In this document: positions 13,721 through 21,983 of the stretch, piece by piece
Position numbering within the stretch: position 1 is the first letter of the stretch
Layout: each line of letters opens with the position of its first letter
From: an uncultured bacterium
Lineage (GTDB): Bacteria; Edwardsbacteria; AC1; EtOH8
DNA length: 64,000 bases
Direction of reading: 5' to 3'
NCBI GenBank assembly: GCA_937863685.1
Contig: CALMGM010000005.1
Span: 806,001-870,000, forward strand
Translations under genes and position numbers: made by a program
Notes under the pieces: generated by a model
The model's database searches: none
What the model was told of the DNA's origin: nothing
What the model saw: only the letters and a program-made list of their open reading frames with translations

Positions 13721-15148
13721 TTATTTCCTCCCCTTCTTGGCAGTTTTCTTGGCTTTTTTCACGGACTTCTTTACCGGCTTCTTGGCCACAGCTTTTTTCT
13801 TAGCCTTGGGCTTAACGATCTTGACCTTGGCCTTTTTTGGTTTGGCGGTCTTGGGGGCCGGAGTCACGGTGCGGGGATCGGTGATCTCGCCGGTGATGGC
13901 CGAGGCCGCGGCGGTGGCCGCCGAGCTTAAATAGACCTCGGCGTTGGGATTGCCCATCCGCCCCTTGAAATTCCTGTTGGTGGTGGCCAGGGCCTTGTCG
14001 CCGTCGGCCAAGGCGCCCTGGTGGATGCCCAGGCAGGGGCCGCAGCCGGAGTTCATCACCACCGCGCCGGCCTTCATGAATGTTTCCACGTAACCCTTCT
14101 TTAAAGCCTGCTGGTAGATGCGGGTGGAGGCCGGGAACACCAGCATCCGGACGCTGCGGGCCACCTTCTTGCCCTTGAGGATGGAAGCGGCGATGGCCAG
14201 GTCGTCCAGCCGGCCGTTGGTGCAGGAGCCGATCACGATCTGCTGGACCTTGATTCCCTTGGCGGCGCCCACCGGCTTGACGTTGTCCACGGTGTGGGGG
14301 AAGGCGATCTGGGGCTCCAGTTTTGAAGCATCGATCTCCACCACCTGCTCGTAAACCGCGTCGGCATCCGGGCCGAACAGCTCGGGGATGTTCTTGACCC
14401 CGGCTTCTGTCTTCAGATAGCGCACGGTCTCGGCATCGGGCGGGACGATTCCGCCGGTGGCTCCGGCCTCCACCGTCATGTTGCACAGCACCAGGCGGCC
14501 GGAGGTGGACATCTTCTTGATGGTCTCGCCATGGAATTCGATCACCTTGAAGTTGGCGCCCTCGGCGGATAATTTTCCGATCAGGTGCAATATGATATCC
14601 TTGGGCTCGACGTACTTGGGCAGGGTTCCGTTGACCACCACTTTGATGGTCCCCGGCACCTCCACGTTCAGGATCTTTCCCAAGGCCCAGACCGCAGCCA
14701 TCTCGGTGGCCCCGATGCCGAAGGAGAAGGCGCCCAAGGCCCCGTGGCTGGTGGTGTGGCTGTCGGTGCCCACTATTACCTGGCCCGGAAGGTCGTAGCC
14801 GCTCTCCGGCAGGATCTGATGGCAGATGCCGCCCTCGTCGCCCCGGATGTCGTGAAATTTGGTGATGCCCTGCTTGGCCACGAACTCGCGGATCTTCTTC
14901 TGGTTCCCGGCGGTCTTGGAGCTCTCGGCCGGCACCCGGTGGTCGAAGATGATGGCGATCTTGGAGGGATCCCAGACCCTGGCCTCGATCCCGGTGTCCT
15001 TGTAGATCTCGTTGAACTGGTTGATCACCAGCGCGCCGTTCTCGTGGGACATGGCCAGGCTGACCTTGGGCTCGACCACGTCGTTCACCTTGACCGATGC
15101 CTGGCCGACGGCCCTGGCCAGGATCTTTTGGACCATTGTCATTCCCAT
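13721..15148 (-). CDS. leuC: 3-isopropylmalate/homoaconitate dehydratase large subunit with basic C-terminal tail
   Basis: 475 residues. The first ~425 are an ordinary aconitase-family large subunit, with the [4Fe-4S] cysteines in IGSCTNGR and NSGCGPCLG and the conserved GTDSHTTSHGALG. Residues 427-475 are not part of the family: they are a Lys/Ala/Pro/Val tail of repeated KKAK, VKK and AKK units, about half lysine, like histone H1 or bacterial AlgP/Hc1 tails. The ribosome binding site GAGGAG lies 7 nt before the ATG. The first ~40 codons plus this site are duplicated at 17455-17590. leuD follows by 2 bp. Confidence 0.92.
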   Translation of the reverse strand: MGMTMVQKILARAVGQASVKVNDVVEPKVSLAMSHENGALVINQFNEIYKDTGIEARVWDPSKIAIIFDHRVPAESSKTAGNQKKIREFVAKQGITKFHDIRGDEGGICHQILPESGYDLPGQVIVGTDSHTTSHGALGAFSFGIGATEMAAVWALGKILNVEVPGTIKVVVNGTLPKYVEPKDIILHLIGKLSAEGANFKVIEFHGETIKKMSTSGRLVLCNMTVEAGATGGIVPPDAETVRYLKTEAGVKNIPELFGPDADAVYEQVVEIDASKLEPQIAFPHTVDNVKPVGAAKGIKVQQIVIGSCTNGRLDDLAIAASILKGKKVARSVRMLVFPASTRIYQQALKKGYVETFMKAGAVVMNSGCGPCLGIHQGALADGDKALATTNRNFKGRMGNPNAEVYLSSAATAAASAITGEITDPRTVTPAPKTAKPKKAKVKIVKPKAKKKAVAKKPVKKSVKKAKKTAKKGRK

Positions 15149-15318: not shown

Positions 15319-16776
15319 TTATGACATTCTAATGCCTTTTGGTGCACGCGGACAATTCGGCGAAGGGGAATAAGGAGAACCATAAGTAAACAAAGCATCT
15401 CTGAAACATCTGCCGTAAATACTATGGCATTCATTAAATACATCACAATCGCTACATACGGTACCTGAAAACAATTCTTTTGGTGGGCAGACAAAAGCCT
15501 GCAAGTCTATTGAATTCCATACTTCACGTAACGAGTTATTTTTTAAATCCCCCACAATGTATGGAGCCTCCTGCGGAACCTGTTCGCAAAGAATAACTCT
15601 ACCATCGGCTGTGACTGACATTGATGATTTCCCACCTGAACAATGTGCTCTTTTTCTCCAGCCAATCTTTTTTTCCTCAATATCCATGCATGAGAAATCC
15701 CTTATCCCCATATTACAACGCAGTTGGTCCCACGTCAACTCATCTTTTAGTTTGTTTATTTGTTCTTTTGCCCATTCAATTTCTACTTGGCTTAGGAATA
15801 AAGCTTCGTTATGCCTGAAAAATGACCTCGCATAGTTAGTGATACCTGCGCGTTTTACACCCTTTTTGTAAAGCATCCTGACTAGGTTGGGTATTTCTCG
15901 CAGGTTCATAGGGGTACAGACAGTGTTTGTCCTTACAAAGAATCCTTTTTCGGTTAAGTTTTCTATACTTTCAATGGCTCTTGGCGCATAGTCCCTAACG
16001 CCCATCATTTTGTCAACAACAGGCCCGCATCCATCTATACTGATCTGGATCGTACTTGTCTCGCACATACCCGTGTCTAAAAGGATGCCAGCGCGTTCCT
16101 TTGATATATATGTTTTTGTTGGAGCCAGAAATTTGATCTTTCTTGATGCCATTTTCTTAAAAAGTTCATCAATGCCAGCATAAGTAAATGGATCACCTCC
16201 GCTTAAAGTAACAATGTCAATGCCGTTATCAGCGGCCTCATCAATAATCTCTAACCATCTTCCCACGGGAAGATGGTCCTTATGTGAGATTTGCCTTCTT
16301 TCAGAATAACAGTAAATGCAATTTACGTCGCATTTGTTTGAAGGCATCAGCAACAGACTTAATGGAACATCAAGCTTGTTTTCATTCTTTTTTACATCAA
16401 AATCATCACATTTAAACCCGTTAATAAATTTTTCAACATTGCAGCTGTTGGATATCCATCCATCCGGCTTGCACAATTCAAGAAATTCTTTTCCCGGTTC
16501 TGATCTTGAGTGCGCTATCATAGTCCTCATGACATTTTCAGATTGCCCCATTCCGATATCAAATAAGTATGATAACATTGCCGCCACATCTTTTGACCTT
16601 CTTTCCCCATTTAAAAGAGAAAGGGCAACCCCTTCAATAGAAGATATCCTGCGCCAGGTCCCGTATTCTTCAACATCAAAAGGATAAATGATGCAATGAT
16701 TATAATTGGGTCTCAAATGGTATTTAGCATAAACCGCTAAAACATCATTTTCTGCGTATGCTTCGGCAAAACGCAT
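15319..16776 (-). CDS. Radical SAM/SPASM peptide maturase with PqqD-like N-terminal region
   Basis: 485 residues from the ATG at 16776, chosen because GGAG lies 6 nt upstream (a GTG at 16794 is the alternative). Residues ~35-100 resemble a PqqD-type RiPP recognition element (SSIEGVALSLLNGERRSKDV). The radical SAM motif CDVNCIYC gives C149, C153 and C156, and SGGDPF is the GGEP-type strand. The C-terminus is a SPASM domain with cysteines near 379, 397, 430, 441, 444, 450, 457 and 475, likely holding two auxiliary [4Fe-4S] clusters. Such enzymes install crosslinks in ribosomal peptides. The gene directly follows a Cys-rich precursor-like gene. It is AT-rich and unlike the leu genes around it. 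Confidence 0.88.
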   Translation of the reverse strand: MRFAEAYAENDVLAVYAKYHLRPNYNHCIIYPFDVEEYGTWRRISSIEGVALSLLNGERRSKDVAAMLSYLFDIGMGQSENVMRTMIAHSRSEPGKEFLELCKPDGWISNSCNVEKFINGFKCDDFDVKKNENKLDVPLSLLLMPSNKCDVNCIYCYSERRQISHKDHLPVGRWLEIIDEAADNGIDIVTLSGGDPFTYAGIDELFKKMASRKIKFLAPTKTYISKERAGILLDTGMCETSTIQISIDGCGPVVDKMMGVRDYAPRAIESIENLTEKGFFVRTNTVCTPMNLREIPNLVRMLYKKGVKRAGITNYARSFFRHNEALFLSQVEIEWAKEQINKLKDELTWDQLRCNMGIRDFSCMDIEEKKIGWRKRAHCSGGKSSMSVTADGRVILCEQVPQEAPYIVGDLKNNSLREVWNSIDLQAFVCPPKELFSGTVCSDCDVFNECHSIYGRCFRDALFTYGSPYSPSPNCPRAPKGIRMS

Positions 16777-16815
16777 GATCATCTCCAGCAGCACATATTT
16801 TAAAATACTGATGCG

Positions 16816-17301
16816 TTATTTTTTTGTGGGAATCCCCGGTAAATTTCCCACTACCTCGTCGCTTATGCACGTTACGCAAGAAGTGCAGCTGGTAAGGCAG
16901 GAAGTATCACACCATACACAATTCTGGCAGGCAAGGTCGCATTCCGCCATCTTCAGATAGCCCGTTGCTGACTTTTCTTTGTCCAAAATATCCCGAACTT
17001 GCTTTTTTAAGCCTTTTTCTTCAACAAGTGCTTTGATTCTATTGATATCTATTTCCGGTTTGGTCCCTCCCCTGTCGATCAGTACCTGAATGTTGAGCAT
17101 CTCGCTTTCTCTTTGAAGAAGCTCTGCCGCAATTTTCTTTTTTATATCACTGTCTTCATCGGGCAACTTGTCAAATTTATGCCCCTTTTGTTTAGCATTG
17201 AATATGTCTACCGCTTCCTTCTTGACACGCTCAATCTCCTTTTTTATTTGCTCAACTCGGGCTGTCAAGGTTTCTATTTCGTTCTTGCCAAGGTTTTCCA
17301 T
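16816..17301 (-). CDS. Cys-rich precursor-like protein, putative RiPP substrate
   Basis: 161 residues. Residues 1-115 are charged and mostly helical (coiled-coil-like 5-35 and 52-70), with no signal peptide. Residues 121-145 hold eight cysteines as two copies of C-x3-C-x2-C-x2-C (CDLACQNCVWC and CLTSCTSCVTC) separated by DTS, then a 16-residue tail. The ribosome binding site AAAGGAGG, 6 nt before the ATG, is the strongest nearby, and a promoter-like sequence lies upstream. The pairing with the radical SAM/SPASM gene 39 bp downstream suggests a thioether-type (ranthipeptide/sactipeptide-like) product. An iron-sulfur carrier is the alternative. I recognise no named family. Confidence 0.75.
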   Translation of the reverse strand: MENLGKNEIETLTARVEQIKKEIERVKKEAVDIFNAKQKGHKFDKLPDEDSDIKKKIAAELLQRESEMLNIQVLIDRGGTKPEIDINRIKALVEEKGLKKQVRDILDKEKSATGYLKMAECDLACQNCVWCDTSCLTSCTSCVTCISDEVVGNLPGIPTKK

Positions 17302-17454: not shown

Positions 17455-17577
17455 ATCACCAGCGCGCCGTTCTCGTGGGACATGGCCAGGCTGACCCAGC
17501 TCGACCACGTTGTTCACCTTGACGAATGCCTGGCCGGTGGCCTTGGCCAGAATCTTTTGGACCATTGTCATCCCCAT
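17455..17577 (-). pseudogene. leuC 5'-end fragment (duplicate)
   Basis: Matches the first ~41 codons of leuC (15148 down to about 15024). The 42 bp farthest from the start are identical, and the rest differs at scattered positions. A 2-bp deletion after the codons for VVE shifts the frame. Upstream (to about 17590) it keeps an AGGAGG ribosome binding site 6 nt before ATG. With the intact gene it forms direct repeats bracketing the radical SAM cassette. Nothing else is seen in the 17302-17639 gap besides the cassette promoter. Confidence 0.9.
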
Positions 17578-17639
17578 ATGTTACCTCCTATGTTTTATCC
17601 ATGATATTATTGTTTTTATAGTAAATATAGCGGGCATAA

Positions 17640-18470
17640 TCAGGTACTAAATTGTTCGGTTAATCTTCTGATATCTTGAGAAACAGAAGAAGCCAATATC
17701 AATAATTTTTTTATTTTTTGGCGATCATATACCTCACCCTCACCCATTGAAACAAGTTTGTTTCTATCGGCCGGATCTCTTTTACAATGAGCCAAAAGAT
17801 TGCGATTTTGTTCTAATGTTTGCATGTACACGCTAAGTTTTTTAAACTGTCCCTTGATTTGTTGTGATTTTAATATTTTATCTATGGTTACACTTTTACC
17901 GACCAATGAGCTATACTTATTTTCCAAAACATAATTATAAAAATCATTATGCATAGGGGCAGGTATTTTGAAATAAGAAACAAAGAAAGCATTGATGTCT
18001 TGCTCGATGTCAATAACTCTTGAGATTATCAAACCCCGTAGAAATACAATATCACTACAGCGTCTTAAATTTTTGCCAATAATTTCTAATACTGGGTCTG
18101 CGATATTATCTTTTCCCTTAATTACTTCTACGAAACCATAAGGATCTGTTTTTCGGTATACGTCCGTCAAATCAATATCTTGTGCAGAATAGAACAGAAC
18201 GTCTACTAAAAACCCTTCCTTTCTGATTGAATTTATAAGATCAATGCCAGTTAAATCACCTTCAAGATTGTAATCAGTAACCAAAATATCTATATCATCT
18301 TCTTTTATGCATTTTTTAAGAAGTGAACCATCAGCATCATATATTAGGTTTAGCTCAAATTCACCAAAGTTTTGTTTAAACTTATATTCTAACTCTTCTT
18401 GATTTGGAGAGAAAATAAGTTTATTGTCTTCAACCCACACCACGGTAATTTTTTGTTTAATGTCCATCAT
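17640..18470 (-). CDS. Response-regulator receiver fused to a HEPN-like domain
   Basis: 276 residues from the ATG overlapping the upstream kinase stop (ATGA). Residues 1-125 are a receiver domain with the acidic pair E14-D15, phosphoacceptor D66 (LVTDYNLEG), S95 and K118 in place. Residues ~135-276 are all-helical with no DNA-binding motif. They resemble MltR/DUF4145-type HEPN domains (INAFFVSYF ... SLVGKSVTIDKIL ... QNRNLLAHC). R223 and H228 give the RX4H motif used by HEPN ribonucleases. So the output is probably RNA cleavage or protein binding, not transcription. It is the last gene of the Dcm-GHKL operon. Confidence 0.72.
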   Translation of the reverse strand: MMDIKQKITVVWVEDNKLIFSPNQEELEYKFKQNFGEFELNLIYDADGSLLKKCIKEDDIDILVTDYNLEGDLTGIDLINSIRKEGFLVDVLFYSAQDIDLTDVYRKTDPYGFVEVIKGKDNIADPVLEIIGKNLRRCSDIVFLRGLIISRVIDIEQDINAFFVSYFKIPAPMHNDFYNYVLENKYSSLVGKSVTIDKILKSQQIKGQFKKLSVYMQTLEQNRNLLAHCKRDPADRNKLVSMGEGEVYDRQKIKKLLILASSVSQDIRRLTEQFST

Positions 18471-20716
18471 TTTAAAACAACCTCCCAACATGCACCTTTG
18501 CCAAGTTTAGTATAATTATTTCCCAAAAAAGAAACTGATCCACCCATTGCTTCTACAATGGTCTTAATGTGATGCAGGCCAATCCCGGCGCCATTTGTGG
18601 TCGTATAACCTCTTAAAAATACGTACTTACTAAACTTTTGATCAACACCTCTTCCATCGTCAGCAATATATATATGAAGACGTTTACCTGCTATTCTATA
18701 GCTAATAGTAATGGTAGAGGCCTCTGCTTTTTTCGAGTTACTTAATAAGTTGTCTAATAATATTGATATTTCAAGTGGTTTAAATCTAGTGATGTACTCT
18801 GCTTCTGCCCCGATAAATCTAAAGCGAAGTGATTTTGTTTTAATCATTTCTAAATATTCTTTGATATATTGAATGATATCTTTCGTTATCCATTCTGTTT
18901 TTAAGTTGAAATTGGCTTGGCTTACGAAACCAGCTAACACCCGTATCTTATCGTTCTCAAGGGCAAGCACATCAACCAATGGTGCAATCGTAGAAATTGG
19001 TTTTCTATCTTTAATATTTTTATTAATTTGTTTTATTATGCCCTTAACTGCGACAGTAGAATTTTCAATAGTATGATTAAGATTGACAATAACATCTTTA
19101 TCTGTTGACACCATCTTGCTAAGGAATAAAGATTCTCGTTCCTTAGCTTTGAGATCACGTTCTATAGATTCTTTATCTTTCTCAAGGTCATAGGTTGCAA
19201 ATCTAATAGATTTTACTTGTTTCTCAATATAATCACGTTCTTTTGGATTAGATACATATTTGGCTATAGATTCAACGTTTTTTATTATCTCGGGGATTTT
19301 TTCCACTTGCTTTTCACGGAATATATCCAATAAGTCAGCATTAAAACTGATGCTTTTTTCAGGGTCTTTTACTTGACCGACAATTTTTTGTATAAGTTCA
19401 ATACTATCTTTCTTAATATCTTTATCAGGTTTATCCTTTTTTTCGCTATCCCACTCAATACCCTCAACAACATATTTTTCGAGCCTTCTTAATACTTTAT
19501 CGAAAAATAATGATTGGAGGTCATAATAAGCATCTGTTTTAATAACACCACCATCGCGACTTGACACTTCCATAAAATTTGGTTGTGATCCTTTTAATTC
19601 TATCCTGCCAATGAGTTCCCTGGCTGATAAAAACCTGCCGTAACCTTGGACTTTTCTTTTTTCTAAGCCAAGCCAATCATCGCCCTCATCACCATATGGA
19701 TGTATCCTGAAATTATTCTTATATAGAAAGATTGAACCATATTTTACAGGTTCCATCCCCATGGTGCCCGTAAAATTATGTTTTGCAGCACGGTTTAGAT
19801 AAAAAACACGAGCAATTATATCATTGAGTTTGGGATAATCACTTTTCTCTACAAGTTTGAATATAAAAACTCCTTTATCAATAAGCTCTGTAATTATTTT
19901 ACCGTTACTAATTGTTGTTGTTATTTGTGTGGTTTTTATGTCAAGTTTCTCAAAAACAACATTTTTGACCGGACCGTTAATGATGTTATGTGCGTTTATA
20001 TTTTCCTTCTTATTTTCTCTTTCGAATTCATTGGCAACAAGATTAATCTTGAATTCTCCTTCTGAATCAGTGGAAGAAGGATTGATCAACCGTTGCAAGT
20101 ACTTCTTAAGTTTTATAAGTTTATCCGAATCCCATCCATCATTAAGGTGGCTTATTTCCAGTATAGTGCCTTTCTTAAAACCTTTTATGGGGGCGTAGTC
20201 AATATCTATAGTATTGGTACGTTCATATGAAACTGAAATATTTTGGAATTCCTTTTTTTGATCCTCTTCGAACCTTGTCCAGTCAAGAGATATAACGTTG
20301 TATTGTTTGTCATCTTTTTTCTTTGTAATTAACCGAAGATTTTTCCCCAGGCGGTCACAGGAAAAACGCCCGATACCTTTTGCTCCAGCAAAAATTCTTT
20401 TCACATTTATATTGCCTCTGTAATCCTTTGTCAAAGCCTTTTCAAACTCTTTCTTGTCAGAATAACCCACAAAAAGCCATTTGTCGCGTAAATCATCAAA
20501 AGACATGCCATCGCCATCATCAATGATAAGAATCATCGAGACCGCTTTTTTATCTGTTTTTCTTATGTTCTGAAAAACAATATCTACTTTATTTGCGGTT
20601 GCATCATAAGAATTCTTCACTAGCTCAAAAATAGCTATAAGGTCATTGGTTATCAGTTCCTTTCCAATGATATTCTTCAGACCAGAGCTTATTTTAAAGT
20701 CTAGTTGCTGTGTCAT
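18467..20716 (-). CDS. Double-GHKL ATPase: Hsp90/MORC-like N-terminal domain plus histidine-kinase C-terminus
   Basis: 749 residues from the ATG at 20716, whose A is also the last base of the dcm TAA. The N-terminal GHKL ATPase has E31/N35 in FELVKNSYDA, IIDDGDGM and GAKGIGRFS, as in Hsp90/MORC/MutL proteins. A linker and coiled coil (about 430-540) follow, then an H-box-like NLNHTIENS (near 548). A second HATPase domain has an N box (LLDNLLSNSKKAEA), ADDGRGVD and GAGIGLHHI. There is no membrane segment, so the sensor is cytoplasmic. It presumably phosphorylates the receiver encoded next. GHKL ATPases of this N-terminal type accompany restriction-modification systems. Confidence 0.85.
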   Translation of the reverse strand: MTQQLDFKISSGLKNIIGKELITNDLIAIFELVKNSYDATANKVDIVFQNIRKTDKKAVSMILIIDDGDGMSFDDLRDKWLFVGYSDKKEFEKALTKDYRGNINVKRIFAGAKGIGRFSCDRLGKNLRLITKKKDDKQYNVISLDWTRFEEDQKKEFQNISVSYERTNTIDIDYAPIKGFKKGTILEISHLNDGWDSDKLIKLKKYLQRLINPSSTDSEGEFKINLVANEFERENKKENINAHNIINGPVKNVVFEKLDIKTTQITTTISNGKIITELIDKGVFIFKLVEKSDYPKLNDIIARVFYLNRAAKHNFTGTMGMEPVKYGSIFLYKNNFRIHPYGDEGDDWLGLEKRKVQGYGRFLSARELIGRIELKGSQPNFMEVSSRDGGVIKTDAYYDLQSLFFDKVLRRLEKYVVEGIEWDSEKKDKPDKDIKKDSIELIQKIVGQVKDPEKSISFNADLLDIFREKQVEKIPEIIKNVESIAKYVSNPKERDYIEKQVKSIRFATYDLEKDKESIERDLKAKERESLFLSKMVSTDKDVIVNLNHTIENSTVAVKGIIKQINKNIKDRKPISTIAPLVDVLALENDKIRVLAGFVSQANFNLKTEWITKDIIQYIKEYLEMIKTKSLRFRFIGAEAEYITRFKPLEISILLDNLLSNSKKAEASTITISYRIAGKRLHIYIADDGRGVDQKFSKYVFLRGYTTTNGAGIGLHHIKTIVEAMGGSVSFLGNNYTKLGKGACWEVVLK

Positions 20717-21924
20717 TATATCAATCCTTTTAATACAAGACCGCACTGCTCACTAAATAATGGTGAAACAGCATTTCCAACTTGGGTATATCTCGGTGCT
20801 TCTTTCTTTCGATGCTTGCCACCGGTTGTATATTTCCCCTTGAATTCGTACCAATCATCAAAGCCCTGTAGTCGTGCGTATTCCCTAACTGTAAGTATTC
20901 TAGGCTCGGAGTAATGTATATAATCGTCCGGCAGGGTTGTTAATGTTGGGCAAATACCATTATCGTGCAACGGTATTGTGACCTTTTTTGATAGGGCGAA
21001 CTTTTTCCTAACCATATCATTAATAGGTTTATTCGCTATACAGTTATTGATGATATATTTAAAACGTTTGGTGGTCATCTTGCGATGGTTTGAGAAACGG
21101 TGACTGTCTGGCATATCTAACCCACCAGCACTTCTCATCAATGTTTGATATGGTGAAGAAAGTATGCCGTACAATCCCATTTTAAAGCCAAAATATTCAG
21201 AGGATGGTAACACCCCGTTTGTATGACATAAATCAGATATCGCACCACTTACAGTTACCTTCTTTGTAATGCCGTGTTTTTGCAAGTAGGTTTTTTTCAT
21301 TCCTTTTAGTTTTTTGAAAAATGTTTTAGGGTCGCCTGTTTTGACTCCAATAAGAATAAACCTTTTCCGTCGTTGCGGTAACCCATAATCGGAGAAATCA
21401 ATAACTTGAGCATATGTTTTATACCCTAATATTTTAAGTCGGTCTATTACATAAGAGGAATAAGCCTTCCCTTTGGGGTTGTTCTTTCCAAAATCCCAAG
21501 TAAAGCCTCTTACATTTTCCAATAATAGTGCTTTAGGTTGTACACAACTAATAAAATCTATATACGAATTAACAAGTAAATTCCTTTTATCATTCCATTT
21601 TCTTCGCCCGGCTGTCGAAAACCCTTGGCAGGGGGGGCCACCAACCACAAGATCAATGGTTCCTCTTAATCCGATCAAGTGCGTCCTGTGCTTTTTTAGG
21701 GTTTTGTTTATTTCGTGATTTTTTATAGGTAGCCAGTCGGGCCATGCGTAGTGATTTAATCTGTCAACAAGATTATGCTTAAGAGTTTCGAATGCATGTT
21801 TGTCTTTTTCAATTGCGAACAACCCCTGCCATCCAGCTTTAGCTAACCCATATGATAGGCCGCCACAACCAGCAAAAATATCTATATATTTTTTCGTGGA
21901 AGTTTTCACATTCACACCATACAT
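20716..21924 (-). CDS. DNA (cytosine-5)-methyltransferase
   Basis: 402 residues with the C5 methylase motifs in order: I (DIFAGCGGLSYGL), IV with catalytic Cys (GGPPCQGFS), VI (LLENVRGF), VIII (YGLPQRRKRF), and IX/X (ARLQGFDDW, QVGNAVSP). A target-recognition region of about 150 residues lies between VIII and IX. It methylates cytosine C5 at an unknown site. No restriction endonuclease is encoded beside it. The next gene is a GHKL ATPase/kinase that starts on its stop codon. The start is ambiguous: GAAGG abuts the ATG, and the GTG at codon 4 has better spacing. AT-rich, suggesting acquisition. Confidence 0.93.
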   Translation of the reverse strand: MYGVNVKTSTKKYIDIFAGCGGLSYGLAKAGWQGLFAIEKDKHAFETLKHNLVDRLNHYAWPDWLPIKNHEINKTLKKHRTHLIGLRGTIDLVVGGPPCQGFSTAGRRKWNDKRNLLVNSYIDFISCVQPKALLLENVRGFTWDFGKNNPKGKAYSSYVIDRLKILGYKTYAQVIDFSDYGLPQRRKRFILIGVKTGDPKTFFKKLKGMKKTYLQKHGITKKVTVSGAISDLCHTNGVLPSSEYFGFKMGLYGILSSPYQTLMRSAGGLDMPDSHRFSNHRKMTTKRFKYIINNCIANKPINDMVRKKFALSKKVTIPLHDNGICPTLTTLPDDYIHYSEPRILTVREYARLQGFDDWYEFKGKYTTGGKHRKKEAPRYTQVGNAVSPLFSEQCGLVLKGLI

Positions 21925-21954
21925 CCTTCAAACATCATATTGCTATTAACGGTA

Positions 21955-21983
21955 ATCATAAGACTAACTAGTGCTAATTTCAA
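21955..21983 (-). promoter_or_regulatory. Sigma-70-type promoter of the Dcm-GHKL-receiver operon
   Basis: Minus strand: TTGAAA (21983-21978), 17-nt spacer, TATGAT (21960-21955). Transcription would start about 24 nt before the methylase ATG. Confidence 0.7.

Follow-up and report, generated by a model that had tools for sequence, protein, structure and literature searches.

The window analyzed here is a 64,000-nucleotide (nt) stretch of DNA from an uncultured bacterium of the Edwardsbacteria lineage (contig CALMGM010000005.1, positions 806,001–870,000); unless a locus is named, coordinates are positions within it. An operon at 17640–21924, minus strand, comprises three genes, which encode a C5-cytosine methylase, a soluble histidine kinase with two GHKL ATPase domains, and a protein in which a receiver precedes a HEPN-like domain. 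The methylase gene (20716–21924, 402 amino acids) shares 1 nt with the kinase gene (18467–20716, ATG at 20716, 749 amino acids), as stop and start codons overlap, and the kinase gene in turn overlaps the receiver-HEPN gene (17640–18470, ATG at 18470, 276 amino acids) by 4 nt (ATGA). These open reading frames confirm the three overlapping genes of a first-pass annotation of the same DNA. That annotation had also placed the genes under a good promoter. A promoter-like site is indeed found upstream of the methylase (TTGAAA-17-TATGAT, 21955–21983, minus strand, 10/12 consensus matches), but such sites number 17 across the region versus 18.0 in shuffles, which is the level expected by chance. The annotated lack of a restriction endonuclease holds for the operon and for the adjacent genes read at 13.7–25.4 kb.

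Domains and conserved residues of the three proteins

The methylase matches PF00145 over its full length (E-value 7.5e-53), and the catalytic PPCQGF, ENV and QxRxR regions are intact, in agreement with its original assignment. Homologues from bacteria and archaea are ∼50% identical to one another, a level that predicts a shared target site.

The kinase does contain two ATPase domains in one soluble protein, as had been proposed. The N-terminal GHKL module, of the paraMORC/HATPase_c_3 type (residues 14–230; 20027–20677, minus strand), matches PF13589 (6.1e-24, residues 28–169), and in NCBIfam it scores best against the BbrUII/HgiDII restriction-enzyme family (2.5e-20, residues 18–236). The catalytic ATPase domain of a histidine kinase lies at the C terminus (residues 650–747; 18476–18769, minus strand; PF02518 HATPase_c, 1.1e-15). 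The predicted phosphoacceptor, His548, sits in an H-box of sequence NLNHTIENS (19073–19075, minus strand); it is invariant in alignments of 10 and 27 kinases and is present in 130/142 kinases in which this column is filled. Two N-box residues, N656 (142/143) and N660 (143/143), are similarly conserved, as is G711 of the G-box. Residues of the motifs ELVKNSYD and GxKGIGRF do not count toward conservation here, as the scans had selected for them. By these matches the protein combines a restriction-type GHKL module with a complete histidine-kinase core. Given that the N-terminal module is closest to BbrUII/HgiDII, the window protein can be read as an enzyme of this family that keeps its ATPase part, the remainder being replaced by a kinase core.

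In the third protein, the receiver matches PF00072 at 3.4e-5, a score under the curated cut-off; 28/39 homologues match the same family, the best at 7.5e-11. The predicted phosphorylation site, Asp66 (18273–18275, minus strand), is conserved in 53/53 homologues, and the acidic pair E14/D15 and S/T95 are also kept. Taken with H548 and the N- and G-boxes of the kinase, the residues predicted to carry a His-Asp relay are thus present. The output domain (residues 138–276; 17640–18059, minus strand) contains the sequence RNLLAH (17787–17804, minus strand), which fits the R-x4-H catalytic motif of HEPN domains as R223-x4-H228; R, N and H are found in 53/54, 52/54 and 53/54 homologues, respectively. 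D66, R223 and H228 are among the invariant residues in 39 aligned homologues, most of which are just 17–43% identical to the window protein. An AlphaFold2 model built from this 39-row alignment (mean predicted local distance difference test score, pLDDT, of 88) shows a beta/alpha receiver and, C-terminal to it, a domain that is entirely helical.

Evidence that the helical domain belongs to the HEPN superfamily comes from the homologues rather than from the window protein alone. We scanned the C-terminal domains of the 39 homologues on their own against Pfam (E ≤ 1), and the three most frequent families were all HEPN families: HEPN_RiboL-PSP (7 members, best 5.5e-6), HEPN_Swt1 (6) and HEPN_MAE_28990 (3). 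A weak link to HEPN_RiboL-PSP also runs through the Methanoregula homologue, and one stand-alone protein matches both the output-domain profile and HEPN_RiboL-PSP. From these sequence relationships the HEPN identity of the domain is well supported but not proven, and the receiver plus HEPN-like architecture first described for this protein stands, together with the near-invariance of D66, R223 and H228. An ordinary C-terminal domain had been raised as the reading that would undo it. That reading is disfavored, a plain dimerization role by the near-invariant R223/H228.

Conserved gene order and exchange of outputs

A scan of GTDB genomes with the kinase alignment returned 80 loci, spread over many phyla of bacteria and archaea. 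The nearest kinase relatives are from Omnitrophota (61% identity), Methanoregula (53%), Bathyarchaeota (48%) and Pacearchaeota (43%). We took as strong relatives the 56 genome loci scoring at least 600 bits. In 52/56, a C5 methylase lies directly upstream of the kinase, so that we rejected the idea of the methylase as a chance neighbor. Directly downstream is a receiver-HEPN gene in 38/56 and a receiver gene plus a second small gene, encoding a His/Cys protein, in 14/56. Four of the 56 deviate (L031, L032, L069, and L039, in which the receiver gene is split over two frames). Most gene junctions overlap, and the commonest kinase-receiver junction, −4 nt (40/73), is that of the window.

Starting from the receiver-HEPN protein instead, we searched 395 genomes of one class and obtained a consistent picture: 6/6 full-length hits adjoin a kinase and a methylase, two of these being loci already known and one (L217) having a kinase broken into pieces. 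Used alone as query against plasmids and phages, the receiver protein found nothing; the kinase was the productive query, and its relatives are also present on plasmids and on viral or prophage contigs. The three genes thus form a conserved overlapping operon that travels together in bacteria and archaea. A search for conserved gene order had been suggested, with rare co-occurrence of homologues as the finding that would count against a conflict system, and the counts refute rare co-occurrence.

Other effectors can replace the HEPN output, while the methylase and kinase stay. The second-commonest output consists of a receiver protein followed by a ∼220-amino-acid protein with invariant H62, G63 and C101. 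This partner was modeled at a pLDDT of 94, and Foldseek returned caspase-8 at a template modeling (TM) score of 0.48 and an E-value of 0.015, which is not significant. On the basis of the invariant H62/C101 pair and the weak fold match, a caspase-like peptidase is possible. These HG...C proteins, which have no Pfam family, are found beside the receiver in L054 (10262–10927), L042, L045, L052, L059 and others, and also in L004 (9782–10462). The two output types, HEPN and His/Cys, alternate at least 8 times on a quick kinase tree with a midpoint root, even between near relatives such as strains of Tenacibaculum (L073 and L054). The alternation of the HEPN output with a separate His/Cys protein on the kinase tree is new in this analysis.

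More distant loci have HNH (L007, L012) or metallo-β-lactamase (MBL)-fold (L013) genes adjoining the receiver, and several have N6 methylases nearby instead of a C5 methylase. In a nearby pair of loci, from Flagellimonas and Mongoliibacter (L031, 4658–9615; L032, 4667–9624), the kinase belongs to a restriction-modification operon, the other genes of which encode a C5 methylase, an HpaII enzyme (1e-140) and a bare, stand-alone receiver of 124–127 amino acids. Among the kinase relatives, a cognate restriction endonuclease was seen only in these two loci. Two further kinds of receiver were noted. Those of L005, L006, L010, L011, L015, L079, L083 and L086 have a long C-terminal region, several sharing a TP.CDL-like motif, and represent another output type. 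In L008, L080 and L095, receivers of ∼370 amino acids are followed by a partner of 250–290 amino acids with WHLDK and SPRI/LMHPPMDI-like motifs, a further output type, which in L080 has no Pfam match.

Proposed function and relation to known systems

Restriction-modification (R-M) systems cut the foreign DNA that they recognize. We consider it probable that the operon is a horizontally acquired, methylation-linked two-component conflict system, most likely acting in anti-phage abortive infection. Its methylase would mark host DNA. The N-terminal GHKL clamp, found elsewhere in restriction enzymes, may load on or translocate along DNA and alert the C-terminal kinase to DNA that is unmodified or in some other way abnormal. 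Autophosphorylation of H548 would follow, H548 would phosphorylate D66, and the phosphorylated receiver would rearrange or dimerize the HEPN domain, which would cleave RNA and halt growth before the phage spreads. When there is no invasion, the methylase would hold the sensor quiet, like the modification half of an R-M pair. In outline this is the model of the first-pass annotation. Sensing, phosphotransfer, RNase activity and phage defense are all inferred, and a cue other than unmodified DNA could act as the trigger. Since enzymatic outputs exchanged on a kept sensor are the usual signature of immune systems, the exchange described above favors a conflict system.

Several observations weigh against this interpretation. 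The receiver is atypical, in that the alignments contain no conserved switch Lys after strand 5. The HEPN domain of the window protein itself has no Pfam match, a sequence/profile search of the PDB gave no convincing HEPN structure for it, and an hhalign profile comparison gave a weak match (19% probability) to a small HEPN_RiboL-PSP set. In a Foldseek search with the whole receiver-HEPN model, only receiver proteins were among the matches listed; because receiver matches dominate, the HEPN fold is not assessable from a whole-protein search. PADLOC has no model for the system, only its generic methylase and restriction-enzyme models being matched, and no defense genes flank the operon in this genome, its neighbors being metabolic genes plus a radical SAM pair. 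Furthermore, 7/10 viral HEPN-type loci (at least 600 bits) have no recognized adjacent methylase, which implies that a methylase in cis may not be obligatory.

Three other explanations deserve consideration. The kinase-receiver pair might regulate the expression or activity of the methylase or of an R-M system according to DNA status, with the helical domain serving as a protein- or nucleic-acid-binding output rather than as a toxin. Pure regulation could account for L031/L032, where the kinase accompanies a C5 methylase, an HpaII enzyme and a stand-alone receiver; R-M control was suggested for a related triad (PMC8011034); and control at the protein level needs no helix-turn-helix or other DNA-binding domain. 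Such a role is nonetheless rather unlikely in our estimation, as the R/H motif of the HEPN domain is near-invariant, the output is swapped with the His/Cys protein (H62/C101 invariant) and with HNH and MBL-fold genes, which look like enzymes rather than regulators, and most of the operons have no nuclease to control besides the output itself.

The layout of methylase plus toxin also resembles that of selfish R-M systems, and copies reside on plasmids and viral contigs, as might be expected of an addiction or post-segregational-killing module. Loss of the methylase would leave the genome unmodified, the kinase would fire and HEPN would kill, any phage defense being incidental. However, judged from contig sizes, the loci of the genome scan are mostly off plasmids, several viral-contig copies have no adjacent methylase, and the exchange of effectors better fits an arms race. 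We therefore hold this explanation to be improbable. It is quite improbable, in our view, that the kinase senses another cue, such as a phage protein, DNA ends, or gyrase or topology stress, and that the methylase has a separate part, in anti-restriction or silencing. A GHKL-nuclease, VcSduA, is not described with a methylase partner in PMC12137116, which lends this idea some plausibility. Against it, the C5 methylase is immediately upstream in 52/56 relatives and N6 methylases occur near several distant ones; that a methylase is either kept or substituted makes methylation itself appear to be required.

How does the methylation-linked conflict system compare with those already described? It had initially been judged not to be a named system. 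No paper describing the methylase, double-GHKL kinase and receiver-HEPN protein together was found in the literature searched, which was mostly non-subscription. That judgment must be tempered, because a sister triad was predicted in 2021: Bellieny-Rabelo et al. described HEF_HK, Response_reg_2 and a C5 methylase, with the first two linked in 91.6% of cases, and put them forward as a two-component-like system with a link to R-M (PMC8011034). Their prediction came with no phage tests, and the sections consulted name no toxin output for the triad. The triad resembles the window system in having a soluble protein with HATPase_c_3 at the N terminus and HATPase_c at the C terminus, a linked receiver gene and a C5 methylase upstream. 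Our Pantoea relative, L015, is a true HEF_HK/Response_reg_2 member (PF19192, 3.8e-19; PF19191, 2.5e-7). By contrast, the window kinase has no PF19191 match at E ≤ 1 (1/27 relatives does, at 5.6e-4), the window receiver matches PF00072 and not PF19192 (which 1/39 relatives matches, at 0.0017), and the receiver carries a HEPN domain.

Detocs is a three-gene (DtcA/DtcB/DtcC) defense system built on two-component signaling, the best-described form of which uses an ATP-degrading PNP effector (PMC11249213). The window system is similar in its predicted two-component signaling and in having a putative enzymatic effector that could abort infection. It differs in its C5 methylase, its restriction-type GHKL module and its HEPN domain; Detocs is not known to have a methylase. 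We thus regard the system as analogous to Detocs and have not filed it as a member, a distinction drawn from domain make-up. GHKL ATPases of the paraMORC type occur in R-M operons (Iyer 2008, PMC2292703), in some cases with HEPN fused directly to them (Anantharaman 2013, PMC3710099). These share with the window system a GHKL ATPase adjoining C5 methylases, but here a histidine kinase is fused to the GHKL module, and the link to HEPN is a receiver rather than a direct fusion. The BbrUII/HgiDII family (NF050001) has a homologous N-terminal GHKL module, yet the window protein scores 72.6 versus an equivalog cut-off of 550, and its C-terminal half is a histidine kinase. Finally, the predicted, unvalidated systems of DefensePredictor, a machine-learning study (2026; PMC13092281), include a candidate for which a figure legend gives a HATPase and a REC domain. 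Nothing in the main text links that candidate to a methylase or HEPN, and it may or may not correspond to the window system.

On the broader scale, we see evenly balanced prospects for a large unnamed class of immune systems, common to bacteria and archaea, that couple the ATPase half of a restriction enzyme to a histidine kinase. Such systems would convert the sensing of unmodified invader DNA into a phosphate signal able to drive interchangeable killers (a HEPN RNase, a caspase-like protease, an HNH or MBL-fold enzyme, or a true restriction enzyme). If so, recognition would be uncoupled from cutting and routed via a His-Asp phosphorelay, allowing one sensor to drive any effector, and the fields of two-component signaling and R-M would be joined. 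The N-terminal GHKL module, left open by the 2021 prediction, would have a role, and there would be a way for a paraMORC ATPase to read DNA methylation, a long-standing question that also touches eukaryotic MORC proteins. The switches between HEPN and caspase-like outputs on nearly the same kinase amount to natural swap experiments.

Genomic setting

The operon is AT-rich, with a G+C content of 0.30–0.38 versus ∼0.6 in the flanks. Among 11 genomes searched, a full-length kinase was found only in this one, being absent from the 10 relatives. A search of 10 genomes of the same phylum likewise turned up no other copy. In a sister genome (G002), the slot between a leuC-like gene and an HMGL/CoA-transferase gene holds one other AT-rich gene, of 229 amino acids (L229, 1730–2419). 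The cargo in another (G001; L228, 1986–5392) consists of an Mrr-type (Mrr_cat) endonuclease, an HNH_5 endonuclease and a third, membrane-like gene. Because AT-rich cargo differs across the sister genomes, the site is a slot for exchangeable, partly defensive genes, and placement of the operon in a variable slot of this kind favors a conflict system.

Beside the distal end of the operon is a 139-bp remnant of a leuC-like 5′ end (17455–17593, minus strand), which shares 88% identity with the same end of the gene in G001 and G002. The leuC-like gene is at 13721–15148, and the remnant suggests that DNA was inserted there twice in succession, where the gene starts. Between the gene and the remnant lies an AT-rich pair of genes (15319–17301, minus strand). 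One encodes a radical SAM/SPASM protein, the best NCBIfam matches of which are peptide- or cofactor-maturase families, below cut-off. It adjoins a gene for a 161-amino-acid protein with a Cys-rich tail (CDLACQNCVWCDTSCLTSCTSCVTC), and the two are possibly the maturase and precursor of a ribosomally synthesized and post-translationally modified peptide (RiPP).

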